Assembly: GCA_943330915.2 (NCBI GenBank)
Contig: CALQJO020000020.1
Span: forward strand, 1 to 49,243
Reading direction: 5' to 3'
DNA from: Rhodoferax sp. OV413
GTDB lineage: Bacteria > Pseudomonadota > Gammaproteobacteria > Pseudomonadales > Pseudohongiellaceae
Length of the DNA stretch: 49,243 nucleotides
The notes beneath the pieces are model-generated. The model searched no databases. It saw only the letters and a program-made list of their open reading frames with translations, and had not been told where the DNA came from. The position numbers were made by a program, and so were the translations under genes. Positions 3,975-29,700 of this stretch are shown here, one piece after another; position 1 is the first letter of the stretch; every line of letters begins with the position of its first letter.

Positions 3975-6539
3975 TTACAATTTCCTGCCTACCCACAGTA
4001 GCAGTGTGTCTATCAGGTCATGTTTGCTGAACGGTTTGGAAAGCACATCGTCCATGCCAGCGGCCAAGCACGCGGCCTTATCACCTTCCATAGCTCCTGC
4101 GGTGACGGCTATGATGGCTGTTCGCCGACGTCCCCGCTCACTGGCGCGTATGGCACGTGCTGAGTCAAAACCGTCCATGACAGGCATGTTGCAATCCATC
4201 AGAATCACATCAAACCCTTCCGCACGCTCCACCGCTGCCTCGTAAGCTTGCTGCCCATCAGCAACACAGAGCAGATTGTCCGTGACACCCTTGAGGTAGG
4301 CTTTAATCAACTGAGTATTGATGGGATTGTCTTCAGCGACCAGAATATTCAGTCCTTGCAGTGCGCTGGAGCGAGAGTGCTCAGACAGCTTGGTGTTGCT
4401 CTCTTCGCGGGTGATGGCCGGGGACAGTGGTAACTCCAGAGTGAATCGCGAGCCTTTGCCCGGCTCACTGGCCACGTGAATGCGTCCATGCATGCTTTCA
4501 GCCAATGAACTGGAAATGGTCAGGCCCAGCCCGGTACCACTTAACATCAGTGAATCAGAATTGCTTGACTGAAAAAACGGCAGGAATAATTTGTCCAGAT
4601 CGTTCTGCGGAATGCCTACGCCTGTATCGCTGATGTCAAAGCGCAGACATTCAAAGGGATGTTGCTGTGCTCTCACTTCAACGGTCACGGCGCCTTGCGC
4701 TGTAAACTTGATGGCGTTACTCAACAGGTTGGTCATGATCTGTCGGATGCGCAACCGATCACCGACATAGTGAGTCAGCATACCTGGTGCTGTGGTGATG
4801 CTGAACTGCAAGTTTTTCTTTTCGGCCAGCGGGCGAAACATCAATTCCAGTGACTGCAACAAGTCTGCGAGACTGAAGTTCACCGGGTTGAGAACCACTT
4901 CATTGGATTCCGCCTTGGAAAAATCCAGCACGTCATTGATGAGTGCCAGCAACACTGTGCCCGATTCACGAATGGTCAGGGTGAGCTGTTGGATATTGGG
5001 CGCAGGCGATTCGCCCAATATCAGATCAGCCAGTCCCAGAATGGCGTGCAGAGGGGTACGTATCTCATGGCTGACGCGAGCAACAAAGCGGGCTTGGGCG
5101 ATATTAGCCTGGTTGGCGTCCTTGGCCAGTTGCTCCGCTTGATCACGGGCTGATATCAGTGCCAGGTTTTGTGATTGAATCAGCGATTCATGCTGCGAAC
5201 GGACCTCGGCGTTGACCAGCAGATCAGCGAGCAAGCGTAACAATGTCAGGTCAACGTCTGTCCACAGCCTTTCCTGCCTGACGGCATCAAATCCGATAAA
5301 GCCAATACAGGCTTCGTCCAGAATCAGCGGGATGGTGACAAGTGATTTGATGCCTTGTGGTTCGAGGACGTTACGCAGGCCATGGCCGACAGGAAAGTCC
5401 TTTACACTTCTGACAAAAAATGGCAATCCCGCTTCATGAGCCGCCATCCACAGGCGGAAGGCATCCACAGGGATATCTTGCAGGTTGGCAATTTCAGGCT
5501 CAATTCCTTCGGCACACCATTCATGGGTATTGCTGGTGGTCTGTTTCTTCAGGTCATAAACAAAGCGGTAGGCTCGATCAGCACCCACAAATTCCCCGGC
5601 TTTGCACAGTGCGGAGGTAATCACCTCATCCATCGCGTGGTACTGGTTCTTGATCAGGTCAAAGGAGATGGAGACCAGCAAATTCTCGAGCTGAGAACGG
5701 TACATGGATTGCGTGCGGGCCAGTTCGGCCTCGGTCACGTCATAGTTCACCCCCACTACCTTGACGGGTTTGCCGCCTTCAAACACCAGGGTAGCGTTTG
5801 ATGCCAGTTTGCGTCGTTTGCCGTCAGCCAGTTGGATACGAAAGTAGTACTCTGTGGGGTCGTCAACGCCTTGAGCAATGTAATTGCGAATATGGGCTAT
5901 GACCTGAGGTTTGTCTTCGGGAAGCACAAAACGGAAAAAATCCCGCGCTGAATAGTCAAAATGGTTTTCTTTCAGCCCGAACAGCTCACCGATCAGGGTG
6001 TCAATGCGGATATTGCCGGAGGCAATATCCATTTCCCAGGTCCCGACTCTGGCGGCTTTTGTTGCCAGCTCAAACCGTCGGGTCTGACGCAGATTGTTGG
6101 CGCTTAACTCACAGGCCCGGCAGGCTGCCGAAAACTTACGCAGAATCTGTCTGAAATTGCCTTGGAAATTTTTGCTGAGCGTCAGTGGCTTTCCACACAG
6201 CACCAGTACACCAAACCCGGGGATGGCAAAAAAGTCAACGCTGGCGTCAATGCCGTTGCGAAGTAAGCTCTTGCATGCATGTTGTAGAGGTGAGGCCATT
6301 GCTTCGCGAATGGCATCATCCAGAACATTTTCAATCAGTGTATTGTCAGCAAATGACTGCGGCAGAGAGTACAGAATCTCTGGCAGGTCGTTGTCGGTGG
6401 TGCGCACAACAGCACCCGCCATGCGGTTAAGCAGTTTGACGTTTTTGGTCACAAACTCATGAAGCGCCGTGTCGAGGTCAAGTGTGCCTCCAACACTGAG
6501 CGAGATTTCAAAAAGTACTTCTATCTCGACATCAAGCAA
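3975..6539 (-). CDS. Hybrid sensor histidine kinase, GAF-PAS-GAF-HisKA-HATPase-REC
   Basis: Likely cytosolic hybrid kinase with no membrane segment. With the TTG start at 6539 it has 854 residues. This start has GGAGAG seven bases upstream and begins just after the FIST gene's stop. An ATG at 6602 would overlap the FIST gene by 59 bp and has no well-placed ribosome site. Approximate order of domains: N-terminal GAF-like region (3-157), PAS (155-270, with VGTWEMD and the GGKPVKVVGVNYDVTE end), GAF (277-447), HisKA (480-547, phosphohistidine 491 in VSHEIRTP), HATPase (590-707, with NLLSNAIKF and DTGVGIP) and REC (732-852, phospho-acceptor Asp782 in LMDCNMPVMDG). As the last gene of the cluster, directly after a FIST protein, it resembles kinases paired with NosP. 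Its phosphate probably goes to the Hpt protein at 12560. The signal is inferred from context. Confidence 0.88.
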   Translation of the reverse strand: MLDVEIEVLFEISLSVGGTLDLDTALHEFVTKNVKLLNRMAGAVVRTTDNDLPEILYSLPQSFADNTLIENVLDDAIREAMASPLQHACKSLLRNGIDASVDFFAIPGFGVLVLCGKPLTLSKNFQGNFRQILRKFSAACRACELSANNLRQTRRFELATKAARVGTWEMDIASGNIRIDTLIGELFGLKENHFDYSARDFFRFVLPEDKPQVIAHIRNYIAQGVDDPTEYYFRIQLADGKRRKLASNATLVFEGGKPVKVVGVNYDVTEAELARTQSMYRSQLENLLVSISFDLIKNQYHAMDEVITSALCKAGEFVGADRAYRFVYDLKKQTTSNTHEWCAEGIEPEIANLQDIPVDAFRLWMAAHEAGLPFFVRSVKDFPVGHGLRNVLEPQGIKSLVTIPLILDEACIGFIGFDAVRQERLWTDVDLTLLRLLADLLVNAEVRSQHESLIQSQNLALISARDQAEQLAKDANQANIAQARFVARVSHEIRTPLHAILGLADLILGESPAPNIQQLTLTIRESGTVLLALINDVLDFSKAESNEVVLNPVNFSLADLLQSLELMFRPLAEKKNLQFSITTAPGMLTHYVGDRLRIRQIMTNLLSNAIKFTAQGAVTVEVRAQQHPFECLRFDISDTGVGIPQNDLDKLFLPFFQSSNSDSLMLSGTGLGLTISSSLAESMHGRIHVASEPGKGSRFTLELPLSPAITREESNTKLSEHSRSSALQGLNILVAEDNPINTQLIKAYLKGVTDNLLCVADGQQAYEAAVERAEGFDVILMDCNMPVMDGFDSARAIRASERGRRRTAIIAVTAGAMEGDKAACLAAGMDDVLSKPFSKHDLIDTLLLWVGRKL

Positions 6540-6543
6540 TCCA

Positions 6544-7665
6544 CTACTCTCCGGGAAAAGCGACAACAGCCGTTGTTTTGTTGTAAAACTCAAGAAAACC
6601 ATCGTTGCTGCTAGCGATCTCTCCAATCGACAGCACACCGCTGGTCGCTACGACTCCCCCTTCCAGCATCGTCAGTTCACTGTTGAACTGATCCTTCATC
6701 AACAGGAATCGGGAAATACAGTCAAATACAATCTTGTGTTCAGTTTTCTTGCCCAGATCCTTTTCCGCCTGCTGAACTGCACTGACAGTCGACGCCAACA
6801 GTTCCTCCATCGCTGACGACAGGACATAGACAAAGCAGTTGTCATCGAATTCGCCAACACACACAAGGCCACCCTGATCGGTGCTGGCAATGGGGTCGCG
6901 CACAATAATTGATCCGCCAAGCCGGCGTATTCCCAGGGGGAACATGCTGGCAGTGCCGATCAGGTCATCAGGGTCAATATCTGCGTGAAATTCGGTCTTT
7001 ATGAGCTCGGCGTATACCTCAAGTGCCGGGCGAAAATTCAGTTCGTGAACCGTATTGCCGCTGGTTGAGGTGGCTCTGAGTATTGGCGATGTGGCACGCC
7101 AGCCATGTGATACGCCTACACCACAGTGGCCGGTAATGCGCAACACCACGGCCGCATCGCGTAACAGTCCTGAGTTGCAGATAATGCAACGTGTTGTTGT
7201 GCTGGTCAGGCTGCCAGCGCCGCCTCCAAAAAACTTGGTGGAGACACTGCTGCGGTCATACTCTTTAGACAAAAAAGACGAAATACTGGTTGCGTGGGCA
7301 TCAACAATCACCAGCCTGATCTCGGCATCACTGTTGCCATCTGATTTTTTTGAGAGCTGCGTTATCCCGGTCTGCATGTCTCGGGAAACATCTGTTGTGT
7401 AGGTGACTCCTAATTCGCCATGCACGGCATACACCAGCCAGCCCGCTTTGTGAACCTGTTGATTGTGTATGATGGACGGAAACAACCCTCCCCCCACAGG
7501 GACAGACATCTGCCTGAAATACTGGTCGGCGGTCTCTTCATCAATGTTGTTGTCAACGCAGCCGAGGATGACAAGTCCGTCCGGGGCGCAAACATGAGTA
7601 ATGTCCCGCAGCAGGCTATCCAGTTGAGCCAGCGTACCGGAGGCTATGAAATAGGGAAACATCAT
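6544..7665 (-). CDS. FIST-domain protein, NosP-like candidate nitric oxide sensor
   Basis: Soluble protein of 373 residues built of FIST_N (about 25-210) and FIST_C (about 215-365). FIST_N is recognised by the glycine-rich FFGGGAGS segment. FIST_C is recognised by its closing SGVLSIGEI and the hydrophobic end. FIST proteins sit beside signalling kinases, and one branch, NosP, binds haem and nitric oxide and controls a co-transcribed hybrid kinase. The gene starts at ATGATG overlapping the stop of the REC-EAL gene, and its own stop is followed four bases later by the kinase start, so the three are clearly co-transcribed. That order (REC-EAL, FIST, hybrid kinase) is the basis for the NosP suggestion. 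I cannot identify the haem ligand, so a FIST protein sensing another small ligand remains possible. Confidence 0.82.
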   Translation of the reverse strand: MMFPYFIASGTLAQLDSLLRDITHVCAPDGLVILGCVDNNIDEETADQYFRQMSVPVGGGLFPSIIHNQQVHKAGWLVYAVHGELGVTYTTDVSRDMQTGITQLSKKSDGNSDAEIRLVIVDAHATSISSFLSKEYDRSSVSTKFFGGGAGSLTSTTTRCIICNSGLLRDAAVVLRITGHCGVGVSHGWRATSPILRATSTSGNTVHELNFRPALEVYAELIKTEFHADIDPDDLIGTASMFPLGIRRLGGSIIVRDPIASTDQGGLVCVGEFDDNCFVYVLSSAMEELLASTVSAVQQAEKDLGKKTEHKIVFDCISRFLLMKDQFNSELTMLEGGVVATSGVLSIGEIASSNDGFLEFYNKTTAVVAFPGE

Positions 7666-8915
7666 AGACTATCCTCTTGGCTGTGTTTGCTGCGTGAGCC
7701 CCAGTTGACAACCCACTGAGCAAGTTCCGCGGCTGGCATTGGTTTCGCAAAATAAAAACCCTGGATGTTCTGGATGCCAAGAATCTTGGTATGTTTGAGT
7801 GTGAGTTTGTCTTCCACACCTTCAGCAATAATACGCAGTCCCACCATGCGGGACAGTTGCATGATGCTTTCAACAATGGAGCGTGAATCACTGGAACTGG
7901 CGAGATCCTGAATAAAAGAACGGTCGATCTTGATTTCATCAAACGCGCGCGACTTCAGTTTGGCAAGTCCGGACTGTCCCACACCAAAGTCATCAATCGA
8001 TAGTTGCACACCTTTCATGCGCAGTCTTGCCATCGACTCCAGTACGACCGGGCCGGGGTTTTCAAGGCCACGTTCGGTGATTTCACACTGGAATCGCTGA
8101 GTCGGCAAACCATGTCGTGTCAGTTTTTCCATCAGCTCATCAATAAAAATTTCCGACTCAAGGACTTGTGGTGGCACGTTGATGCTGACCTTTACGGCAG
8201 CTCCGGAGTCCTTTTCCAGTTGCAAGGTATCCCGGATGGCGGTTTCGGCAATCTGCAAAGTGAAAGCCACAACAAGGTTGGAATCTTCAATCTGTTCTAT
8301 AAAGGAGGCAGGGGATAGTCGGCCAAATTCAGGATGATCCCATCGTGCCAGTGCTTCGATGCCAATTACCGCTGCGGATGACAAGGATATCTGGGGTTGA
8401 TAAACAGCACTGAACTGCCCAGCCTTGAACGCGGCGAAGACCTCTACGTCACTGAAACGAGGCTGCATAATTCTGCTGCGCACCTCGACAGCGGAAGGTA
8501 ATCGGTCCAGTTTGGCCAACGCCTTGAGCACAGAAGAACGTGTTAGCGGCTTCTGAAGCACATCAGTTTGATGCAGTCCGTACAGTTTCGCGGTGCGCTT
8601 GGCCAGTTCCAGTATGGGCAACTCATGCCCACTGGCGATCAGCAATTTGGGTTTAGGCTCCTGCATTGCGATGGTCTTTATAAACGCGAGGCCATCAACA
8701 CCGGGCATGTTAAGGTCCAGAATCACAGTGTCGGTGCCCGACAAACAGACTGACTCATCCTCGACGGCTCTCAGCGTCGTCTGCACCGAGTATTTGCCTC
8801 GTAATACAATCTTCATCTGTTGCAGAAACAGCGGGTCGTCATCAACTACCAGCATGCGCGGGAGTTCATTATTGTTTGACGTGGCGCTCGGTTCACAAGG
8901 GCTATCGGGTAACAT
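7662..8915 (-). CDS. Response regulator with EAL phosphodiesterase domain (REC-EAL 1)
   Basis: Receiver domain (about 20-135) followed by a cyclic-di-GMP phosphodiesterase EAL domain (about 155-400), 417 residues. The receiver keeps VVDDD, the acceptor Asp in VILDLNMPG and the Lys in LQKP. All EAL catalytic positions I can check are kept: EALARW (Glu187), the Asn in SINVPP, Glu in CEITERG, the double Asp of DDFG (308-309), Lys in IKIDRS, Glu in AEGVED and Gln in IQGFYF. It should therefore hydrolyse cyclic-di-GMP to pGpG when phosphorylated. It has no GGDEF domain. It overlaps the FIST gene by 4 bp. It is paralogous over its full length to the REC-EAL at 11344, which is degenerate at one of these positions. 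Confidence 0.92.
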   Translation of the reverse strand: MLPDSPCEPSATSNNNELPRMLVVDDDPLFLQQMKIVLRGKYSVQTTLRAVEDESVCLSGTDTVILDLNMPGVDGLAFIKTIAMQEPKPKLLIASGHELPILELAKRTAKLYGLHQTDVLQKPLTRSSVLKALAKLDRLPSAVEVRSRIMQPRFSDVEVFAAFKAGQFSAVYQPQISLSSAAVIGIEALARWDHPEFGRLSPASFIEQIEDSNLVVAFTLQIAETAIRDTLQLEKDSGAAVKVSINVPPQVLESEIFIDELMEKLTRHGLPTQRFQCEITERGLENPGPVVLESMARLRMKGVQLSIDDFGVGQSGLAKLKSRAFDEIKIDRSFIQDLASSSDSRSIVESIMQLSRMVGLRIIAEGVEDKLTLKHTKILGIQNIQGFYFAKPMPAAELAQWVVNWGSRSKHSQEDSL

Positions 8916-8945
8916 AAATGCATTCCAGCAAATCGGGTTAAATGA

Positions 8946-9083
8946 TTAAAAGCTAAACAGAAAAGTCATTGTACCTGGGCAGTTCGTAACGAGCCGACAA
9001 TACATAAACCGATTGAGGGTAGCCGCCAAATCCTCTGCGTTTAGCTCGTCTTCAAGGGCTGTGTTCAGGTTTCTGTTCAGCAT
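8946..9083 (-). CDS. Possible 45-residue small protein between the two sensor modules
   Basis: A short open frame, ATG to TAA, fills much of the 204 bp gap between the H-NOX-associated kinase and REC-EAL 1. The product would be polar and helical in the first half (ALEDELNAEDLAATL) with two cysteines (RFMYCRLVTNC) and a hydrophobic end. The only ribosome-site candidate is a weak AGAG about nine bases upstream. I know no family for it. The gap is long for this otherwise overlapping cluster, so it may hold this gene, a promoter for the FIST module, or neither. Confidence 0.22.
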   Translation of the reverse strand: MLNRNLNTALEDELNAEDLAATLNRFMYCRLVTNCPGTMTFLFSF

Positions 9084-9119
9084 CGCAGATAGCTCTGATT
9101 CTTGATCATATACACGGAC

Positions 9120-10727
9120 TCATCCATGACTTGCGGGCAGCCACTTAATCAGCATGTTGCGGAATGACTGGTTATTGGCGGGCTTTACAAGCGTATCGCT
9201 AAAACCAGAGATGACGTAAGACTTTGCTTCGACTTCACAAGCATTGGCGGTCCAGGCGATAACGGGCGCATCCCTGTATTGCGGAAACTGGCGTATCAGC
9301 CGCGTGGCTTGTTGGCCATCCATTTCAGGCATTTGAATATCCATCAGGATCAATTGATATTGATTATGCCTGGCAAGTTCAATCGCTTGAGCAGCAGACT
9401 CTGCCGCATCAACGTGCAGACCCCATTTTTGCAACTGAAGCATACAAAGGCGCAGATTGATTTCATTGTCGTCTACGATCAGCACCGAACCTGAGAACAG
9501 GACCTGGTTGCTATCCAGCGACTTAAGACTTGATGTACTTGAGGTGATGCTGACAGGAACATCAAACCAGAACGAACTGCCCTTGCCTGATGGCGTGTCA
9601 CTAACGCCGATACGCCCACTCATCAACTCGACCTCGGATTTTACAATTGCCAGTCCCAAGCCAGAGGTGGAGTCTTTTGTTTTTTTAGGTCTGTCAATGG
9701 TCGCGAAGGGTTCAAAAATGCGCTGCCGGTCGGCAATTGGCACACCCGGCCCACCGTCCTGTACCTCAAACAAGAGCGAGGTTATTGCTGATGCCTGCGC
9801 TGCTTTCAGGCTGACTTTGACGAGTACATCAGCCCCTTCGCAATGCTTGATGGCGTTACCCACCAAATTCAGCAGTACGTTATGAATTCTCAGCGCATCG
9901 GCAGATACTGACTCGGGCAATAGTTGTTCAAGCTGCAGTTTAATTTTTACATTGTTTTGCTGTGCGAGCAGGCTGGTGATATCCAGCACATCTTTGCATA
10001 ACTGTGCCGGGTCAAACTCTTTAATGACCAGCATTGCATTGCCTGAACTGATCTGCGAGAAGTGCAGTATTTGATTGATGATCCCGAGCAAGGCTTCGGA
10101 GGATTTGCCAATGACTGAAATCAGTTGAGCAGCATGTGGATTGACAGCCTCGGTCTTCAACAGCTCGGCAGCGCTGACAATGCCATTGAGAGGGGTGCGC
10201 AACTCATGGCTGATGTGGTTTACAAACTGTGACTTAACCTTGCTGGCCTCAATCGCCTGTTCGTTAGCGGTTTGCAGATTCAACAACAGATTATTCATAT
10301 CGTCGATCATCATCTGCTGCGTATTCAGATTCAATTGAAGTTCCAGTTGTGCGTCTGCAATAGGAAAGCTATGTGGAGACAGCAGCCGCGATGGCCGATT
10401 CTCCTGCATCCATGTCAACCATGGAGTAATAACCATAGTAACGTCGTCATCACCCGGTGATGGCGGCAATAGCTGGCCGCGCATCGCAAACTCGCCGTCC
10501 AGCGTAATAAATAAAAACAACTGGCGTCCCAGCAAGCTAATGTCGGGAACGTGCGTGGCAAGAACCGGTCGTTTTACAATAAAACTACTGACAAAATGCT
10601 CACCCTGGCAATTGTTGCCAATCTCCGGCTGCAGTTGGTCACTGACAAATTTAATTTTGTTCTGTTTGTCCAGTACCAGATACAGAGGATAAACGCTGCC
10701 CAGCGCAGGGGTGGGAGCTAAGTTCAT
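9120..10727 (-). CDS. H-NOX-associated hybrid histidine kinase with HNOBA-like N-terminus
   Basis: Cytosolic hybrid kinase of 535 residues. The first ~130 residues resemble the haem-NO-binding-associated (HNOBA) domain of soluble guanylate cyclase: a YPLYLVLDKQNKI start, the RGQLL segment, a VITPWL strand and the linking SFPIADAQLEL helix. A coiled-coil helix (about 125-165) leads into HisKA with phosphohistidine 174 in ISHELRTP. HATPase follows, with LLNLVGNAIKH and DGGPGVP. A C-terminal REC carries VDDNEIN, LMDIQMPEMDG and LVKP. The ATG overlaps the stop of the H-NOX gene (ATGA), so the two are made together, and the HNOBA-like part is the expected docking site for H-NOX. The HNOBA call is from pattern memory and needs a profile search. 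Confidence 0.88.
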   Translation of the reverse strand: MNLAPTPALGSVYPLYLVLDKQNKIKFVSDQLQPEIGNNCQGEHFVSSFIVKRPVLATHVPDISLLGRQLFLFITLDGEFAMRGQLLPPSPGDDDVTMVITPWLTWMQENRPSRLLSPHSFPIADAQLELQLNLNTQQMMIDDMNNLLLNLQTANEQAIEASKVKSQFVNHISHELRTPLNGIVSAAELLKTEAVNPHAAQLISVIGKSSEALLGIINQILHFSQISSGNAMLVIKEFDPAQLCKDVLDITSLLAQQNNVKIKLQLEQLLPESVSADALRIHNVLLNLVGNAIKHCEGADVLVKVSLKAAQASAITSLLFEVQDGGPGVPIADRQRIFEPFATIDRPKKTKDSTSGLGLAIVKSEVELMSGRIGVSDTPSGKGSSFWFDVPVSITSSTSSLKSLDSNQVLFSGSVLIVDDNEINLRLCMLQLQKWGLHVDAAESAAQAIELARHNQYQLILMDIQMPEMDGQQATRLIRQFPQYRDAPVIAWTANACEVEAKSYVISGFSDTLVKPANNQSFRNMLIKWLPASHG

Positions 10728-11281
10728 TTCGTTTCAGGCGTGGTCAATCTGAAACGGGTTAGTTGCCCCTGATCAGTGAGGGTTTCTTCCACTACCGTGA
10801 CTTCAATGACAACGGAATAGTAGTCTGCCAGACCATCCAGCAGTCCCCGCACAAAAGCGGTGAGTCCCTGCCGCGAACTGGCGTAGATCAGCTCGTAGGA
10901 GTTCTCTTCGGTAGTCAGAAGCTGGAAAGACGGTGGGCGGTAGTCTGGAAATGAGGATGCAATCCGATCGTGCATATGGTTCAAATTGCCAAGCAGTTCC
11001 CACAAGGTTTCACCATGCATGTTCAGTACCCCGGCGTAATGGGCAAAGGCGGTGCGCTTGATGAAGTGCCAGCCAAAGTCATACAAAAGGTCATCAATAC
11101 TACGCCCGGTTCTGGCGTGTGTCACACCGAGCAGCGACAGCACCACACTGTCGTCGTAACTTTTCAGTGACAAGAAATCTTTTTCAGACAACCCTGCCGT
11201 TTGCATGATCACTGCCCACTCATCGTCTCCCAAATGAGTTCTCATCATGTCGCGCAGGGAGTTGTGGATCAGTCCATACAT
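10724..11281 (-). CDS. hnoX: H-NOX haem protein (nitric oxide sensor)
   Basis: Stand-alone haem-NO/O2-binding protein of 185 residues, the normal length. The proximal haem ligand should be His104 in NLNHMHDRI. The haem-propionate motif YxSxR is Tyr133-Ser135-Arg137 in YASSRQGL, at the standard 29-residue spacing from the His. The segment after the Arg (QGLTAFVRGLLDG) has no distal-pocket tyrosine of the kind that stabilises O2 in the Thermoanaerobacter protein, which favours NO over O2. Start choice is firm: AGGAGG lies seven bases before the ATG. In known bacteria H-NOX controls an adjacent kinase or cyclic-di-GMP enzyme. Here it overlaps its kinase gene by 4 bp and follows a REC-EAL gene. 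Confidence 0.95.
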   Translation of the reverse strand: MYGLIHNSLRDMMRTHLGDDEWAVIMQTAGLSEKDFLSLKSYDDSVVLSLLGVTHARTGRSIDDLLYDFGWHFIKRTAFAHYAGVLNMHGETLWELLGNLNHMHDRIASSFPDYRPPSFQLLTTEENSYELIYASSRQGLTAFVRGLLDGLADYYSVVIEVTVVEETLTDQGQLTRFRLTTPETK

Positions 11282-11288
11282 AGCAAAG

Positions 11289-11294
11289 CCTCCT
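11289..11294 (-). promoter_or_regulatory. Strong ribosome binding site of the H-NOX gene
   Basis: A perfect AGGAGG on the minus strand, seven bases before the ATG at 11281. It is stronger than the sites of the neighbouring signalling genes, so the sensor may be translated more than its kinase, which depends on the overlapping stop. Confidence 0.7.
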
Positions 11295-11301
11295 GAGTAT
11301 T

Positions 11302-11331
11302 TTTATCGGGAAAACAGGTTCGAAGCGTCAA
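11302..11331 (-). promoter_or_regulatory. Possible sigma-70 promoter for the H-NOX/kinase pair
   Basis: On the minus strand TTGACG (11331-11326) is followed after 18 bases by GATAAA (11307-11302). The start point would lie near 11295, directly ahead of the AGGAGG, giving a very short leader. It would let H-NOX and its kinase be expressed apart from the upstream REC-EAL gene. The -10 matches at only four of six positions. Confidence 0.35.
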
Positions 11332-11343
11332 CAAGTTCCAGCG

Positions 11344-12570
11344 TTACTGGTTGGCGGGTCTGGCGCGCAGCCAGGAGCAGAACTCTTGCGTTGGCATTGG
11401 ATACCCACAATAAAATCCCTGCACATTAGCGACCCCAAGTCGCTTGGTAAGCAGCAGGGTTGGACTATCCTCGATGCCCTCAGCCACCACCCGCATACCC
11501 ACCAATGAAGCCAGATGAATGATACTCTCCACAATTGATCGCGAATCAAGAGAACTGGTCAGGTCGCTGATAACCGAGCGATCAATCTTGATTTCATCAA
11601 ATGTCCGGGTATTGATCTTCGATAAGCCAGATTGCCCTACACCAAAATCGGCAATCGACAGCTGTATCCCTTTCATGCGCAATCGCGCCAGGGTCGTCGC
11701 TGCTTGCAGGCTCGGACTTTCGAGCCCACGTTCGGTAACCTCGCACTGAAAGCGCTCTGGTGGCAAGCCATGCACTTTTAACATGTCACACAGCCGGTCC
11801 ATAAATATTTCTGAAATCAGGACATTGGGCGGGACATTGATACTGACTTTACCCTTAAAGCCCGAGTCCAGACTCATGTGAAGGGTGTCGCGGATGGCCA
11901 TTTCAGCGATCATCAACGTGAATTCAATCGCCTCGGCTGAATCTTCAAGGGAGTGAATGAAATAGGCAGGCGACAGGCGTCCAAGCTGAGGATGATCCCA
12001 GCGAACCAACGCTTCTATGCCGACAATATCGTTGGACTCCAGCGCAATCTGCGGCTGGTAAAACAGCAGAAACTCGCCAGCTCGCGAACCTTTGATGATG
12101 TCAGCTTTGCTGATGTTGTCGGGCGCCTGTGACGATGGCTGGTGGTCGTGGTTCATGAATTCCAGATCCACCAAGGCCTTCAAAAGCTGGTCTTTACTGA
12201 TGGGCTTTTGCAGTGCCAGGGTTTGCGTTAAACCGCAGAGCTCAGCTGCGCTTCTGGCTAGCTCAATGATCGGGTTATCGTAACCGCTGGCAATCAATAA
12301 CTTGGGTTTAGGGTTCAGACTGGCAATGGTCTTGATAAAAGAGACGCCATTCATGCCAGGCATGTTTAGATCAAGAACAATGGTATCGGCCTGTATCAGC
12401 GACAAGGCATCCGGCGGCATTGCCGACAGACGTTGAGTGACAGCATACTTTTTGTCTACAAACAGTTTTATCTGAGCCTGAAAAGAAGTGTCATCATCGA
12501 TCACCAGCAACAAAGGTAGCTTACCTGCCGGATTGAAACTGGTTTGCCGGTTGTGCAGATCACTGGGCAC
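11344..12570 (-). CDS. Response regulator with degenerate EAL domain (REC-EAL 2)
   Basis: Full-length paralogue of the protein at 7662: receiver (about 20-135, acceptor Asp in IVLDLNMPG, Lys in LQKP) plus EAL domain (about 155-400), 408 residues. The start is GTG at 12570 with AGGAG seven bases upstream, overlapping the Hpt gene's stop by 11 bp. EALVRW (Glu186), SINVPPN, CEVTERG, IKIDRS, AEGIED and QGFY are kept. However, the DDFG motif reads ADFG (Ala307 from codon GCC), where the paralogue has Asp. The first Asp helps bind the catalytic metal in EAL enzymes, so activity should be low or absent. The protein may instead be a cyclic-di-GMP-binding or phosphate-sink output. It precedes the H-NOX gene by 62 bp. 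Confidence 0.92.
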   Translation of the reverse strand: MPSDLHNRQTSFNPAGKLPLLLVIDDDTSFQAQIKLFVDKKYAVTQRLSAMPPDALSLIQADTIVLDLNMPGMNGVSFIKTIASLNPKPKLLIASGYDNPIIELARSAAELCGLTQTLALQKPISKDQLLKALVDLEFMNHDHQPSSQAPDNISKADIIKGSRAGEFLLFYQPQIALESNDIVGIEALVRWDHPQLGRLSPAYFIHSLEDSAEAIEFTLMIAEMAIRDTLHMSLDSGFKGKVSINVPPNVLISEIFMDRLCDMLKVHGLPPERFQCEVTERGLESPSLQAATTLARLRMKGIQLSIADFGVGQSGLSKINTRTFDEIKIDRSVISDLTSSLDSRSIVESIIHLASLVGMRVVAEGIEDSPTLLLTKRLGVANVQGFYCGYPMPTQEFCSWLRARPANQ

Positions 12571-12943
12571 GGACGGACTCCTGCTGCAGAAAGGTCAGCT
12601 CAGCACGAATAAGATCAATTGTGTTATGCAGCAATTGTGTTGTTTGTTCTGTCTGTTCAATCACCTGCAACAAATTGCCATCGGCCGCAGCCATCTCAAG
12701 GCATTTCAGTGAGTCTGCCAACGCCAGCGCGCCAACACTGGCGGAGGATGACTTCAGCTTGTGAGCTGTCTGGCGAACCAGTCTCAAGTCATTGCTTTTG
12801 TTGATGTTACTCAAATCGTTCCAGGATTCCAGGTTGATTTGTATAAACATGTCATAAAACTGGATGAGAACATCGTTCTCAGTGGTGCCCAGAGACATCG
12901 GCAATGCAGTTTTATCGAATAAAACCATCGTTGATTGATACAT
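12560..12943 (-). CDS. Hpt-domain phosphotransfer protein
   Basis: Stand-alone histidine phosphotransfer protein of 127 residues, all helical. The phosphorylated residue is His61 in AHKLKSSSASVGA, matching the Hpt pattern HxLKxSSxxxGA. Such proteins carry phosphate from the receiver of a hybrid kinase to the receiver of a final regulator. Both hybrid kinases of the cluster end in a receiver, and neither has its own Hpt domain. This is the only Hpt in the window and the natural shared link to the two REC-EAL proteins and perhaps the OmpR-type regulator. It overlaps the following REC-EAL gene. The exact start is uncertain (ATGs also at 12928 and 12898). Confidence 0.88.
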   Translation of the reverse strand: MYQSTMVLFDKTALPMSLGTTENDVLIQFYDMFIQINLESWNDLSNINKSNDLRLVRQTAHKLKSSSASVGALALADSLKCLEMAAADGNLLQVIEQTEQTTQLLHNTIDLIRAELTFLQQESVRAQ

Positions 12944-13056
12944 GATATGACCAGCTTTCAGAGTGCGACAATGATTCCTAGCAACTTGGCAGCTTATTAA
13001 ACTCCCTTAGCATTCTCAGGACATGTTTACAATTCATTACAAAACTAAATATCCCG
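12944..13056. other. 113 bp gap ahead of the phosphorelay genes
   Basis: A/T-rich gap between the OmpR-type regulator's stop and the Hpt start. It is the longest gap at the upstream end of the phosphorelay genes and the likely site of their promoter, but I cannot point to a convincing -35/-10 pair. No hairpin terminator is evident. Confidence 0.4.
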
Positions 13057-13776
13057 TTATTGACTGACTTGCACCAGGGCATAACCCCGTCCTCGCAGGG
13101 TGCGAACAATGTAGCTCGGATCCAGCGTTACCAGTTTTTTCCGCAGTTTGCTGGCGAGCACATCGATAGAGCGGTTGGACGGCTGCATCTCATAGCCATA
13201 AAGCACCTGGAACGCATCTGCTCTGTCGATATAGCGGTCTTTGCTGCTGACAAACAGCTCCAGCAAACCAATTTCCTTATCCGTCAGTTTGATACTGCTG
13301 CCATTACTGTGCCTGAGCATCTGATCCGTCCAGTTCAGTGCAATATGCTCATCCAACTGCAGTTTAAGCTCACGTGTCTTGCCGTTATCCTCGGCAGGTA
13401 ACTTTCGTAACGAAGCAATGATGCGTGCATCCAGTTCCCGTATATCGCAGGGTTTTACAATGTACTGGTCAGCACCGGCTTTCAGGCAGCTCACCAGTGT
13501 CTCAAGCTTGTTGTTACCGGTTAGCACAATGATGGGAACATCACAAAAGCTCTGCACATGGCGACAAAGTGCAAGCCCGGTGGGTTCATCAATACCCAGG
13601 AAATAGTCAAAGATAAACAGATCAGGCAATTCAAGGGTGGGTAAAAGCTCCATCAGCCGACGCCCGGAGTTGATCAGCGAACAGCGATAACCCAGACTGT
13701 TGAGCTGGTAATCCAGCACCCGACCGTACAACTTGTCGTCCTCTACAATGACAATCGACTTTTTGGTTGTATCCAC
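13057..13776 (-). CDS. OmpR/PhoB-type DNA-binding response regulator
   Basis: Two-domain regulator of 239 residues. The receiver (about 7-125) has acceptor Asp57 in FIFDYFLG, Thr in IIVLTGN and Lys in IVKPCD. The winged-helix DNA-binding domain (about 140-236) shows the typical LTDKEIGLLELF, DVLASKLRKKL and VRTLRGRGYAL. The start is GTG at 13776. No dedicated sensor kinase adjoins it, so the Hpt/hybrid kinase genes just downstream are its likeliest phosphate source. It lies only 31 bp after argA and could be transcribed from there, so membership in the cluster is inferred from position. Target genes are unknown. Confidence 0.93.
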   Translation of the reverse strand: MDTTKKSIVIVEDDKLYGRVLDYQLNSLGYRCSLINSGRRLMELLPTLELPDLFIFDYFLGIDEPTGLALCRHVQSFCDVPIIVLTGNNKLETLVSCLKAGADQYIVKPCDIRELDARIIASLRKLPAEDNGKTRELKLQLDEHIALNWTDQMLRHSNGSSIKLTDKEIGLLELFVSSKDRYIDRADAFQVLYGYEMQPSNRSIDVLASKLRKKLVTLDPSYIVRTLRGRGYALVQVSQ

Positions 13777-13807: not shown

Positions 13808-15133
13808 TCAACGTAGTAGTTTTACAAATGCTTTGGATTTGCGCTGGTAGTTATACATTTGCTGTTTTTTCGGAGGCAGATCATTGATTGCAATGGGTTC
13901 AAAACCACGCTCCAGAAACCAGTGTGCTGTTTGTGTGGTTAACACAATCACTTTTTTTAATCCCTGCTTCAGCGCTTCTTTTTCCAGAGCCCGCAGCAGA
14001 TGATCGCCTCGCCCGCTTTCCTGATAATGCTTATGGATGGCGATGCAGGCGATTTCACCACATTCTTCATCCAGCGGGTAGATGGCAGCACAGGCAATGA
14101 TCATGCCTTCCATCTCGATCACCTTAAAGTAGCCGATCTCCGCCTCCAGTAGTTCGCGCGAACGATGCACAAGAATTCCCGCCTCTTCCAGCGGCGCAAT
14201 CAATTCCAGAATGCCACCGACATCATTAATGGTTGCCTGACGCAACCACTCAAAGTTGTCTTTGGACACCAGTGTGCCTTGACCATCGCGGGTAAATAGT
14301 TCCTGAATCAGCGCGCCGTTGTCTGCAAAACTGATCAGGTGGCAACGATGCACGGTTTTATTGCTGGCTTTGACAGCGGCGGCCAATGACACCAGCGTAC
14401 CGTTTTTGCTTTGAATATTGTCCGCAGGAATCTCTCTGAGCAGTGCTTCTGCAGCAACCGGGCTCAGTGTGCTCATCAACTCACCGTTGTTGTTGCTGAC
14501 CCCACACTGAGGGACAAAAAGGATGAGTTTGGACGCCTGCATGGCAATGGCTACTTCGGTAGCAATATCCTCAGCCGACAGGTTAAACACCTCTCCGGTC
14601 GGTGAATAGCCAAGATTGGACAATAGCACAATACTGTTCTTGTCCAGATGCTGAAGGATTGCTTCCGCATTCACCTTACGAACAACACCGGTGAGGGCGT
14701 AATCGACACCGTCAATAATCCCCAGTGGGCGGGCGGTAATGAAGTTGCCGCGGCTGACCTTGATATCCGCGCCGTGCATCGGTGAATTGGCCAATCCCAT
14801 AGAAAACTGTGCTTCGATATCGATGGACATGGCGCCAACGGTCTGTTTGATCAGCTGTAAACCTTCGCTGTCAGTAATGCGCAGACCTTTGTGATAGCGC
14901 AGTTCATGGCCGGCGCTGGTGAGCGCATCATTAATCTGCGGCCGCGCGCCGTGCACCAGCACCAGTTTCACACCCAGACTGTGAAGCAGGGAAATGTCAT
15001 GCACAATGCGACTGAAGTTGTCGTGAGCAAGCGTCTCCCCGGTCAGCAATACCACAAACACCTTCTTGCGATGGGCATTGATGTAACTAGACGAATGTCT
15101 GAACCAGTCAATGTATTGCGTTAGATTGTCCAT
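13808..15133 (-). CDS. argA: N-acetylglutamate synthase ArgA
   Basis: First step of arginine synthesis: acetyl-CoA plus glutamate gives N-acetylglutamate. The N-terminal amino-acid-kinase-like domain (about 15-285, with VLVHGARPQIN) binds arginine for feedback inhibition. The C-terminal GNAT domain (about 290-440, with IAIHKHYQESGRGDHLL) carries the acetyltransferase. With the ATG at 15133 the protein has 441 residues, close to known ArgA lengths. An upstream ATG at 15169 would add 12 residues. ArgE lies 54 bp upstream. Together they favour the linear arginine route, in which acetate is removed by hydrolysis. Confidence 0.94.
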   Translation of the reverse strand: MDNLTQYIDWFRHSSSYINAHRKKVFVVLLTGETLAHDNFSRIVHDISLLHSLGVKLVLVHGARPQINDALTSAGHELRYHKGLRITDSEGLQLIKQTVGAMSIDIEAQFSMGLANSPMHGADIKVSRGNFITARPLGIIDGVDYALTGVVRKVNAEAILQHLDKNSIVLLSNLGYSPTGEVFNLSAEDIATEVAIAMQASKLILFVPQCGVSNNNGELMSTLSPVAAEALLREIPADNIQSKNGTLVSLAAAVKASNKTVHRCHLISFADNGALIQELFTRDGQGTLVSKDNFEWLRQATINDVGGILELIAPLEEAGILVHRSRELLEAEIGYFKVIEMEGMIIACAAIYPLDEECGEIACIAIHKHYQESGRGDHLLRALEKEALKQGLKKVIVLTTQTAHWFLERGFEPIAINDLPPKKQQMYNYQRKSKAFVKLLR

Positions 15134-15187
15134 CTCGTTTAGTTCCGTGTTGCCCTGCTGATAAGCCATTCCATTATGTGTTTAAGC

Positions 15188-25276: not shown

Positions 25277-26713
25277 TTAATCTGACAGGTACTTGTTAAT
25301 TGCTTCAGCAACTTTGCGGCCTTCGTCTATCGCACGCACCACCAGCGATTGACCGCGGCGGCAATCACCGGCTGCAAACACTTTCGGGTGGTTGGTGCGG
25401 AAGTCCCCGTATGCAGCTTTGTAATTGGAGCGTGCATCCACTGCAAGTCCCAGCGGCTTGGTAATGTACTGTTCTGGTCCGAGGAATCCCATCGACAACA
25501 GAATCAGATCAGCTTCCCAAAACTTGATGGTGCCAGGTATTTCTTTGAAGCTGGCGTCCACTTCAACGGTATTGATGCCCAGCAGTTTGCCGTTTTCATC
25601 ACGTACAAATTCTTTTCCGCTGATGGAGTACACCCGTGGGTCTTGTCCATCGCGGTGCGCCGCTTCTTCATGGCCGTAATCAACACGGTAAATTTTCGGC
25701 CACAGCGGCCATGGATTGTCAGCGGGACGATGCACCGACGGACGCGGCATAATCTCAAAGTTGACCAGCGATTTGCAGCCGTGACGCAGTGACGTGGCGA
25801 TACAGTCAGTACCGGTGTCACCACCACCAATCACAATCACGTTTTTGCCTTTAGCGCTGATGAAATTGCCGTCAGTCAATTCAGAATCGAGCAGGCTGCG
25901 GGTGTTTGCTGTCAGGAAATCCATCGCCGGATAAATGTTGTCACCCTCGCGGCCCGGAATTGTGAGCTCACGAGCTGTGGTGGCGCCGGTGGTCAGGCAC
26001 AACGCGTCAACGTCTTCCAGCAGATTTTCTACCGACATGCCTCTGTCGCCTGTACCGCCGACGTTAACACGAGTGACAAAGCGTATACCTTCTTCCTCGA
26101 GCAGTTTCACCCGACGCTCAACAACGCTCTTTTCCAGCTTCATATTGGGAATGCCATACATCAACAGTCCCCCGATACGGTCTTCTCGCTCGTAGACAGT
26201 GACCGAGTGGCCAGCCTGGTTAAGTTGTGCGGCGGCTGCAAGGCCGGCAGGACCGGAGCCAATGACTGCTACTTTTTTACCGGTGCGGAATAACGGTGGA
26301 TTAGCAACAACCCAGCCGTTCTCGAACCCGCGGTCAATAATGGCGTTTTCGATATTTTTTATGGTGACCGGCGGATTATTCATGCCCAGTACACAGGAGC
26401 CTTCACATGGCGCCGGGCAGACGCGGCCGGTAAATTCCGGGAAATTATTGGTCTTGTGCAGGCGGTCAAGCGCTTCGCGCCACTGGCCTTTGTAGACCAG
26501 ATCGTTCCATTCGGGGATCAGGTTATAAACCGGGCAACCGTTGTCGGATTGACAAAACGGTACACCGCAATCCATACAGCGGGCACCTTGCGTGGCCAGG
26601 TGCGTATCATCCGGACGCGTGTAGATTTCCTTGTAGTCCAGCAACCGTTCTCCGGGAGCCCGGTACGGTACGGTGCGGCGGTCGAATTCTTTAAAACCCG
26701 TTGGTTTGCCCAT
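25277..26713 (-). CDS. gltD: Glutamate synthase small subunit GltD
   Basis: Beta subunit of NADPH-dependent glutamate synthase. It passes electrons from NADPH through FAD and iron-sulfur clusters to the large subunit. The N-terminal cysteine-rich domain ([16 protein letters not shown], then [12 protein letters not shown]) binds the clusters. The FAD motif [13 protein letters not shown] is near residue 150 and the NADPH motif [10 protein letters not shown] near residue 295. It is 478 residues, normal for the family. AAGG seven bases before the ATG sets the start. It follows gltB by 53 bp. Confidence 0.96.
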
Positions 26714-26766: not shown

Positions 26767-29700
26767 TTACACGGCAATAGCCTGTTGTCGGGCTGCCAAT
26801 TCGGTCAGCACACGTTTGTAATCTGTTGGCATTACTTTCACAAACTGTGCGAGTGACTGGCTCCAGTTATCGAGAATCTGTCTGGCTACTGGCGACCCCG
26901 TGTGATGCAGGTGATTGCTGATCAGCGACTTCAGTTCGTTTATGTCTGCGCTGTCTGCCACGGCTTCCAGTCCATATGTTTCGGTATTGCACTGACGCGC
27001 GAAGTCCTTGTTTTTATCCCAGACATAGGCGATGCCGCCGCTCATGCCGGCACCGAAATTGCGGCCGGTTTTTCCGAGAATAACCACACGGCCGCCAGTC
27101 ATGTATTCACAACCGTGGTCGCCGATGCCTTCAACAACAGCGGACGCCCCGCTGTTACGCACGGCAAAACGCTCTGCAGCGATACCGCTGAAATAGGCCT
27201 CGCCGCCCGTTGCGCCATACAGATTAACGTTACCAGCGATGATGTTTTCTTCGGCTTTGAAGGTGCTGTTTTTGGGTGGATAAACCACAATTTTGCCGCC
27301 AGACAAGCCCTTGCCAACAAAGTCATTACAATCGCCTTCAACGCTGATGGTGATGCCTTTGGCCAGCCACGCCCCGAGGCTCTGACCTGCAGAGCCGTGC
27401 AATTTGATGGTAATTGTGTCATCAGGCAGCATCTGCTCGCCGTGATGCTTGGCAACTTCATTGGAAAGCATGGTACCCACAACACGGTTGATGTTAAGCA
27501 CGGGCATTTCGATCTGCACTTTTTCTCCGCGCAGCAATGCCGGTTGTGCCAATTCAATCAATTGATTATCCAGCGCTCTTTCAAGACCATGATCCTGACT
27601 GATCGTCTGATGGGTCACCGTATTCGGATACACCATTTGTGCTGGCTTCAGGATGTTGCTCAGATCCAGTCCGCGCGCTTTCCAATGATCAATAGCACCG
27701 CGGCTTTCAAGCAGGTCAACCCGTCCGACCATGTCGGTGAGTTTGCGCATACCCAGGCTGGCCATGATCTCGCGCAGTTCTTCGGCCACCATAAACAGGT
27801 AGTTCACCACGTGCTCAGGCTGACCTTTGAACTTCTTGCGCAGTTCCGGATCCTGGGTAGCAACACCGACCGGGCAAGTATTCAAATGGCACTTGCGCAT
27901 CATGATGCAGCCTAGCGTTACCAGTGGAGCTGTGGCAAAACCAAACTCTTCCGCACCCAGCAAAGCAGCAATGGCCACGTCACGGCCGGTTTTTAATTGT
28001 CCGTCTGTCTGCACAACCACACGTGAGCGCAGATTGTTCATGACCAGTGTCTGGTGGGTTTCTGCCAGGCCCAATTCCCAGGGCAAACCCGCGTGCTTGA
28101 TGGATGTCAGTGGCGATGCGCCGGTTCCGCCATCATGGCCTGCAATGACCAGATGTTCGGCTTTGGCTTTGGTGACGCCGGCAGCGACAGTACCAACCCC
28201 GACTTCGGATACCAGCTTGACGCTGATACGAGCCTTGCGGTTGGCATTTTTGAGATCGTGGATAAGCTGTGCGATATCTTCAATAGAATAAATATCGTGA
28301 TGTGGCGGCGGAGAAATCAGGCCGACGCCGGGCGTTGAGTAACGCAGACGCGCAATATTCGCATCGACTTTTCCGCCGGGCAGTTCTCCGCCTTCGCCAG
28401 GCTTGGCGCCCTGCGAGATTTTGATCTGCAGCTCATCAGCATTGGTCAAGTACCAGATGGTCACACCAAAGCGGCCGGATGCCACCTGTTTGATGGACGA
28501 GCGCTTGGAGTCACCATTAGGCATAGGCTGGAAACGCGCGGGGTCTTCGCCGCCTTCACCGGTGTTGGATTTGCCACCCATGCGGTTCATGGCGATCGCC
28601 AGGGTCTCGTGAGTTTCCGGTGAAATGGAGCCCAGGCTCATTGCGCCGGTGGCAAAACGCTTGACGATGTCTTTCGCGGACTCGACGTCGTCCAGCACAA
28701 TGGCCTGTTGTTGATCAGTACGGAAATCCAGCAAACCACGCAAGGTGCAGGCGCGAGTGGTTTGCTCATTGGTGTACTTGGCAAAAATTTTATACGCATC
28801 AGGACTGTTATTGCGCGCTGCCACCTGCAGGTTAAAAATCGCGCTCGGGTCCCACATGTGGCCTTCGCCACCGCTGCGCCAGTGGAAATCACCTGGGTTG
28901 GCCATGACCGGAATACGGCCGGTGTCGATGACCGGGAAGCCCAGGTGGTGACGACGCTCGGTTTCCTGAACAAGCGTATCAAAATCGACACCTTGTACGC
29001 GGCTGGCGGTTCCGACAAAACAACGATCGATAATGTCATCAGCCAATCCAACTGCTTCAAAAATCTGTGCACCTTTGTAGGATTGCAGTGTTGAGATGCC
29101 CATTTTTGCCATGACCTTGAGCATGCCCTTGCCCACGGCTTTTTTATAGGCATACACAATTTTGTCTTCGGTGGCGTAGTCTTTGCTGAGCAATCCGTCT
29201 TTCTGAGCCTGCCACAGCGATTCAAATGCCAGGTATGGGTTGATGGCATCTGCGCCATACCCGGTGAGCAGGCAATGGTGGTGAACTTCGCGGGCCTCAC
29301 CCGTTTCCAAAATCAGACCAATGCGACTACGTTCGTGTTGCCTGATCAGGTGATGATGCACTGCGCCACAAGCGACCAGTGAGCTGATCGCCATGCGTTC
29401 CCGACTGATTTTGCGATCTGACAGAATGATAAACGCATACCCATCAGCGATGGCCTGACTTGCCTGGCGGCAGATGCCATCGAGCGCGGTGACATAGGCA
29501 TTGGCAGTTTTTGCATCATAGGTGATATCAATAACGTTGCTGCGCAGACCTTTAAAATCCATGTTGCGGATAGTCTGCAACTGCGAGTTAGACAAAATCG
29601 GGTGCTTGAGACTCAGGCGGTGTGCATGCTTCTCGGTAGTTTCCAGCAGATTGCCTTCCGGGCCGATAAAACACTCCAGCGACATAACGACCTCTTCACG

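Follow-up and report, generated by a model that had tools for sequence, protein, structure and literature searches.

The closest described counterparts of the system reported here are relays in which soluble haem sensors act through histidine kinases. In the passages considered from two papers on Vibrio, H-NOX and its kinase HqsK of V. harveyi and V. parahaemolyticus reach the histidine phosphotransfer (Hpt) protein LuxU with LuxO as the output, and NosP (VpsV) with VpsS of V. cholerae reaches LuxU in vitro (PMC7595309, PMC6769237). Here, we describe a cluster of eight genes in a stretch of 49,243 nucleotides from a bacterium deposited as Rhodoferax sp. OV413 and placed by GTDB in the family Pseudohongiellaceae (assembly GCA_943330915.2, contig CALQJO020000020.1, positions 1 to 49,243; hereafter the window). 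The cluster encodes an H-NOX protein and a FIST protein, each with a hybrid histidine kinase, together with one Hpt protein, an OmpR-type response regulator and two REC-EAL proteins. We consider it probable that this locus encodes a two-branch phosphorelay in which both kinases feed the one Hpt.

The Vibrio relays and this locus share a soluble haem sensor in an operon with its kinase and the convergence of several kinases on one Hpt protein. They differ in that the H-NOX and NosP inputs of the Vibrio passages lie in different species and LuxU belongs to quorum sensing with LuxO as its output, whereas here a single locus holds both sensors, the Hpt, the OmpR-type regulator and the REC-EAL proteins. 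In Shewanella oneidensis, according to the portions considered of two papers, the H-NOX kinase HnoK phosphorylates the phosphodiesterase regulator HnoB, and HnoD, which carries an inactive domain, inhibits HnoB (PMC8738867, PMC8846402). The inactive domain of HnoD is a diguanylate cyclase domain in the relevant passage (PMC8738867), whereas the putatively inactive partner here is an EAL protein. These Shewanella passages, unlike the present locus, mention no hybrid kinases with a stand-alone Hpt and no OmpR output. The title of one paper reportedly links NosP to the Shewanella H-NOX network, in which nosP probably lies apart from hnoX. For Legionella, the passages considered place a NosP-NahK-NarR system and two H-NOX systems in three separate regions of the genome (PMC11237717). 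The likeness to our locus lies in the presence of both sensor families in one cell and in the cyclic di-GMP (c-di-GMP) outputs of NosP and Hnox1, the difference in the three regions that stand against one locus here. Finally, a gene neighbourhood network of H-NOX proteins lists FIST genes near hnox in its group 1, which has members in Bacteroidota and other phyla (PMC8738867); it is a statistic and, in the part considered, gives no architecture, relay or genus for such loci. Our search of PMC, outside which subscription papers including the one on Shewanella NosP largely fall, found no paper describing a locus with H-NOX, FIST, two hybrid kinases and one Hpt. The locus thus looks like a new layout of known parts, real and uncommon, and not like a new principle or kind of system.

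The initial annotation of this stretch had claimed two tandem units of REC-EAL protein, sensor and hybrid kinase, with one Hpt protein and one OmpR-type regulator at the upstream end. Open frames, Pfam matches and gene spacing show the two units as claimed, and Pfam likewise bears out the Hpt and the regulator (Table 1). On the minus strand, the order reads argA, OmpR-type regulator, Hpt, REC-EAL1, H-NOX, kinase, REC-EAL2, FIST and kinase; the cluster is flanked by argA (13808-15169) and folA/thyA, and all eight of its frames are open. The profile searches that had been proposed as a check recovered all named domains in Pfam but two, the HNOBA head and one GAF domain of the pair. Genes overlap by 4 nt between H-NOX and its kinase, 4 nt between REC-EAL2 and FIST, and 11 nt between Hpt and REC-EAL1, while gaps measure 4 nt between FIST and its kinase, 62 nt between REC-EAL1 and H-NOX, 113 nt between the OmpR-type gene and Hpt, and 204 nt between the two units. 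Each sensor gene is therefore tightly coupled to its own kinase gene. No NCBIfam model among the 25 matches listed reaches its cut-off for the OmpR-type regulator, which is 88% identical to its counterpart in genome G295 and 83% to that in G161. A simple scan for promoters and terminators was uninformative, with 6 promoter-like sites against a shuffle mean of 9.2 and 14 terminator-like sites against 9.8.

Gene identities, domain architecture and the conservation of the joint locus in the genus were computed here, as were the single Hpt match and the loss of an aspartate in REC-EAL1 described below. Among the 15 genomes available for the genus, six have H-NOX relatives and four the joint locus, namely the window genome, G295, G296 and G161. 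As the same arrangement recurs in three other genomes of the genus, it is not due to chance. G295 carries the same eight genes in the same order, the last one cut by the contig end. G296 contains two additional genes. One, located between REC-EAL1 and H-NOX, encodes a second hybrid kinase with PAS_3 and GAF domains (878 amino acids (aa), with 49% identity to the FIST kinase); the other, ahead of REC-EAL2, encodes a chemoreceptor-type protein with an MCPsignal domain (553 aa). The OmpR-type gene and FIST kinase of G296 are cut by contig ends. In G161, the chemoreceptor is present and REC-EAL1 absent, and the clusters of the window and G295 lack the chemoreceptor. The core common to all four thus comprises the OmpR-type regulator, Hpt, H-NOX and its kinase, REC-EAL2, and FIST and its kinase, with the other genes varying between genomes; the Hpt, both sensors and both kinases co-occur in four genomes. 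The insertions in the sister loci lie at L061 8719-11355 (second PAS-GAF hybrid kinase) and at L061 4683-6344 and L042 9999-11660 (chemoreceptor).

All parts of a multistep phosphorelay are present, that is, hybrid kinases, a stand-alone Hpt and receivers with output domains, with the transfer itself predicted. The Hpt translation carries an AHKLKSSS motif with H and K, and its gene is the only Pfam Hpt match in the genome (96.7% complete by estimate, 127 contigs), in agreement with the one Hpt first assigned to the locus. This single match supports a predicted shared relay. The window genome has no second Hpt match and hence, by that test, no CheA, which we assume would match the Hpt model. 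According to the passage considered (PMC6769237), a hybrid kinase ordinarily depends on an Hpt for signalling to other receivers. Five of the 23 receiver matches in the genome fall into this locus; of two long receiver frames compared elsewhere, one is a membrane hybrid kinase of the 7TMR-DISM type (L087) and the other has a single weak receiver (L088). On the LuxU model (NF041948), the window Hpt scores 30.3 bits and misses the cut-off of 140. In G081, which belongs to the same family, three genes stand together: one for an H-NOX protein (36% identical), one for a hybrid kinase whose C-terminal domain is an Hpt (Pfam 33.4 bits) and one for an OmpR-like protein (about 35%, by tblastn only). 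They support a route from H-NOX through kinase and Hpt to OmpR. This set also supports an order of events in which H-NOX, kinase, Hpt and OmpR would form the older route and the FIST branch would have plugged in later.

Table 1 Genes of the H-NOX/FIST cluster in the window, in minus-strand order.
Gene product	Position	Strand	Evidence and predicted role
OmpR/PhoB-type response regulator	13057..13776	(-)	Pfam Response_reg and Trans_reg_C; predicted transcriptional output
Stand-alone Hpt phosphotransfer protein	12560..12943	(-)	Pfam Hpt 34.0 bits (cut-off 24.6); predicted shared hub
REC-EAL1	11344..12570	(-)	Pfam REC and EAL; D307A in DDFG, phosphodiesterase probably inactive
H-NOX	10724..11281	(-)	Pfam HNOB 137.5 bits (cut-off 25.5); predicted haem nitric oxide sensor
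H-NOX-associated hybrid histidine kinase	9120..10727	(-)	HNOBA-type PAS head by fold; HisKA, HATPase, REC by Pfam
REC-EAL2	7662..8915	(-)	Pfam REC and EAL; predicted active c-di-GMP phosphodiesterase
FIST_N-FIST_C sensor protein	6544..7665	(-)	Pfam FIST_N 62.4 and FIST_C 70.7 bits; clade apart from NosP
FIST-associated hybrid histidine kinase	3975..6539	(-)	Pfam PAS_3, GAF, HisKA, HATPase, REC; start = TTG 6539

The assignment of the first sensor as H-NOX is well founded, as judged from its HNOB match (PF07700; Table 1), and the protein matches the solved Nostoc H-NOX at 2e-32. Its His104 aligns with a His of the Nostoc protein that we take to be the proximal one, and YASSR at position 133 keeps the pattern YxSxR, presumably the H-NOX motif; the protein contains no Cys. 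In the alignment, made to Nostoc only, Phe stands in a column where the Nostoc protein carries Met and which we take to be the distal Tyr140 column, a position tied to NO selectivity. A proximal haem His is the mark of the H-NOX family in the passage considered (PMC7108781). An HNOBA-like head had been proposed for the adjoining kinase. The Pfam cut-off speaks against this part of the claim: the window kinase head has no match to HNOBA (PF07701), and two relatives come close to the cut-off of 23.4 bits but stay below it, with 21.5 and 21.1. The fold search speaks for it. Residues 1-160, modelled with AlphaFold on five sequences (mean pLDDT 70.2), are predicted with moderate confidence to adopt a PAS-like fold, and the first 19 PDB matches in Foldseek comprise only the PAS domain of a Nostoc punctiforme kinase (2p04, 2p08) and chains of soluble guanylate cyclase. 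Of these matches, 18 have an E value of at most 0.001; TM-scores over the query are 0.42-0.53. The predicted fold thus supports our taking the head as HNOBA-type.

The FIST domains of the second sensor were confirmed by Pfam. A model of the protein (pLDDT 90.4) has only three PDB matches at E 0.001 or less, all chains of complexes of FBXO22, a eukaryotic FIST protein; a sequence search of the PDB with the FIST profile gave no useful match (best E 0.14). The context is NosP-like, with FIST_N and FIST_C beside a histidine kinase, and the first reading had taken the protein for NosP. This identification was not borne out and we reject it: on the NosP model (NCBIfam NF041558), the window protein scores 31.2 bits against a cut-off of 450, which five other proteins of the order pass with 460-590, and it is deeply separated from NosP in a tree. 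In this tree of 48 rows (midpoint-rooted, with long branches, and built after 13 loci with duplicates, fragments or partial proteins had been set aside), the window protein falls into a set of 25 rows (100/99), apart from a set of 19 that holds the NosP rows (100/98). Its group contains proteins of several phyla, most with a kinase match in the locus. His187 aligns with a His in 41 of the 48 FIST proteins and Cys316 is shared by all 48. Sensing of nitric oxide (NO) by the window FIST protein is thus only a possibility; NO and haem are the known candidate ligands, and the ligand may be another. The clade itself extends over several bacterial phyla and haloarchaea. FIST proteins 31-34% identical lie on replicons of four haloarchaea and of Salinibacter (NZ_CP034941, NZ_CP073372, NZ_CP112973, NZ_CP104004, NC_014157), and searches of plasmid records returned only distant FIST and H-NOX rows. 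At L066 9980-13249, L068 9962-13294 and L047 9732-12886, a gene with an EAL match directly follows FIST in place of the kinase, the FIST protein of L047 being of another clade.

For the kinase beside the FIST protein, a GAF-PAS-GAF architecture had been read, of which Pfam recovers PAS_3 and one GAF region and fails to find the second GAF. The models for NahK and ErcS (NF041832, NF041831) are missed with 160.4 against 400 and 114.6 against 1500 bits. The start of the FIST kinase is most likely TTG 6539, seven bases after GGAGAG and four after the FIST stop; the alternative GTG 6638 would fall within the FIST gene. In the passages considered (PMC12570481, PMC8846402), the effect of NosP differs between two kinases, one being inhibited and the other activated. 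In the Pseudohongiella genome G293 (L062 4688-17548), two kinases flank a FIST protein of the same broad clade. Glycosyltransferase-like genes are nearby and argA lies at a distance of about 6 kb, which places a FIST system in the argA region of that genome too.

Two c-di-GMP outputs had been proposed, a claim that is weakened here. REC-EAL2 retains the EAL, N, TE, DDFG, K, E and QG motifs, and is consistent with it. REC-EAL1 of the window reads ADFG for DDFG, whereas the motif is intact in the other six proteins aligned, two REC-EAL1 and four REC-EAL2. We take the lost aspartate to be a metal-binding residue of EAL enzymes. The REC-EAL1 of the window genome therefore probably lacks phosphodiesterase activity, so that one c-di-GMP output would be silent and only one of the two EAL proteins an enzyme. 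The genome contains 6 GGDEF and 4 EAL matches over the cut-off, plus one fragment, and two of the four EAL matches lie in this locus. In the Shewanella passages, a catalytically dead partner of this kind would find a parallel in HnoD, which inhibits HnoB.

Taken together, we infer the ligands, the direction of regulation and the phosphate routes as follows. In one branch, NO would bind at the H-NOX haem and, through the HNOBA-type PAS head, alter the activity of the hybrid kinase from the next gene. In the other, the FIST protein would sense a small ligand and alter the activity of the kinase encoded beside it. Phosphate would move from each kinase to its own receiver and on to the single Hpt, which would feed the OmpR-type regulator, with an effect on gene expression, and the receiver of REC-EAL2, with an effect on c-di-GMP breakdown. 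REC-EAL1 may take phosphate too, its probably non-catalytic EAL domain making it a competing receiver or a regulatory c-di-GMP-binding partner. More tentatively, the relay may be self-contained, with NO from H-NOX and a second ligand from a non-NosP FIST protein summed on what is possibly the sole Hpt, and the dead REC-EAL protein acting as a phosphate sink or an allosteric partner of the live one.

Several observations weigh against such a shared relay. The 204-nt spacer would allow separate expression of the two units. A divergent Hpt could escape Pfam, the genome being in 127 contigs, and two long receiver frames of 463 and 484 aa stand outside the comparison made above. The Hpt of the window shows no detectable relation to the fused Hpt of G081 (E 0.83), so homology between the two was not usable. 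To these come the low NosP score of the FIST protein and the direction of the H-NOX output: according to the passage considered, H-NOX with bound NO acts as a kinase inhibitor in the other systems studied, Caulobacter being the exception, and we therefore assume no direction (PMC12329717).

The two halves of the locus also differ in recent history. Between the window and G295, synonymous divergence (dS) amounts to 0.14-0.30 in FIST, its kinase (part), REC-EAL2, argA and argE, and to 0.41-0.77 from the OmpR-type gene through the H-NOX kinase. The ratio of nonsynonymous to synonymous divergence (dN/dS) is 0.10-0.27 in the H-NOX half, 0.12-0.26 in the FIST half and 0.07-0.08 in argA and argE. A comparison with G295 in windows of 200 bases gives nucleotide identities of 0.89-0.98 upstream of a first step near 13.85 kb and of 0.71-0.89 between this step and a second one near 9.45 kb, within the receiver region of the H-NOX kinase. 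Past the second step identity is 0.84-0.97, the flanks on the whole being mostly over 0.9; this lower step is blurred by some windows at 0.84-0.90 in the spacer and REC-EAL2. Contrary to the other genes compared, REC-EAL1 of the window has a slightly higher identity with its G296 counterpart (78%) than with that of G295 (76%). We rejected relaxed selection as the main cause of the low identity, since dN/dS is similar in both halves while dS itself is raised in the H-NOX half, which fits recombination better. This pattern suggests that homologous recombination replaced the H-NOX half in either the window or the G295 lineage.

The differing histories are what two independent adjoining modules might leave behind. 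Here, the H-NOX unit would act on the Hpt and the OmpR-type regulator, and the FIST kinase on REC-EAL2 directly or on its own receiver only, with no integration. The gap between the units agrees with this view, as do FIST relatives from the named genome collection: 21 of their 24 loci have no H-NOX match, and a kinase match is present in 19 of these 21. The three loci with an H-NOX match are two titled Pseudohongiella and L063, a contig of G295 from the same genus; the domain listing covers loci from L022 upwards with the duplicates L049-L052 and L054-L057 set aside, and several of the 24 are short (L075 and L080, about 4.3 kb). However, hybrid kinases that end in a receiver normally depend on an Hpt, of which only one was found, and four genomes retain the joint locus together with the Hpt that precedes it, which makes independent modules unlikely in our view. 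The dual NO sensor of the first reading, with FIST as a functional NosP, the two sensors covering low and high NO and both EAL proteins active, is the most doubtful of the readings, as the far-missed NosP cut-off that five reference proteins meet, the deep separation in the tree and D307A in REC-EAL1 outweigh the FIST_N/FIST_C protein with a neighbouring kinase and REC c-di-GMP regulator, as in the NosP systems of the passages considered (PMC12570481, PMC8846402), and the aligned His187.

The survey that had been proposed for FIST and H-NOX genes within 10 kb yielded only four pairs in 293 genomes of the order, which makes joint loci uncommon. H-NOX occurs in 79 of these genomes, FIST in 71 and both in 16 (listings compared by hand and recounted by script). 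Four of the 16 carry both genes on one contig less than 10 kb apart: two belong to the genus, G000 (3.8 kb) and G161 (5.5 kb), and two to another family, G173 (2.4 kb) and G234 (2.3 kb). In seven of the other 12, H-NOX and FIST are on different contigs and therefore yield no distance. Like the window, G173 and G234 combine H-NOX with a kinase and FIST with a kinase; their two sensors are about 2.3 kb apart. They differ in having divergent units, kinases without a receiver and a FIST protein of another clade. In G173 (L043 5110-12354), H-NOX, a small kinase and a sigma54-type regulator (by sequence) lie on one strand and FIST, a kinase and a REC-HD protein (Pfam HD_5) on the other, and G234 (L044 5495-12774) agrees in gene sizes and order. 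As their FIST clade is far from that of the window, joint loci probably arose twice in the order. Across 398 genomes of the phylum, H-NOX occurs in 103 and FIST in 164, and no H-NOX/FIST pair within 10 kb appears among the matches listed, which hold FIST above about 105 bits and not the window's own row. Weak FIST genes were covered in this one phylum for a single clade, that of the window protein: with a profile built on it, 11 of the 398 genomes exceed 100 bits, two of which have H-NOX (G000, G324), nearby only in G000. Three genomes of one genus show a possible tandem H-NOX, with two matches less than 0.5 kb apart (G160:C2:267780-268998, G243:C23:393379-394599, G263:C5:3134-4490). Among the ordinary genes of the window, Pfam identifies a glutamate synthase pair (large subunit 26767-31338, oxidoreductase subunit 25277-26713).

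The locus thus places an H-NOX sensor and a sensor of FIST, the wider family of NosP, in one small relay with one Hpt, the whole circuit spanning about 10 kb. In the Vibrio and Legionella passages considered, such pathways lie in different species or at separate loci, whereas here they stand together in a single one. With few c-di-GMP enzymes in the organism, signal integration would be accessible with a handful of purified proteins, which makes the locus a compact test bed. For the FIST family, our data caution against an untested annotation as NosP whenever a FIST gene adjoins a kinase. If the self-contained relay holds true, this FIST clade would be a sensor family whose job is readable against the known NO branch.

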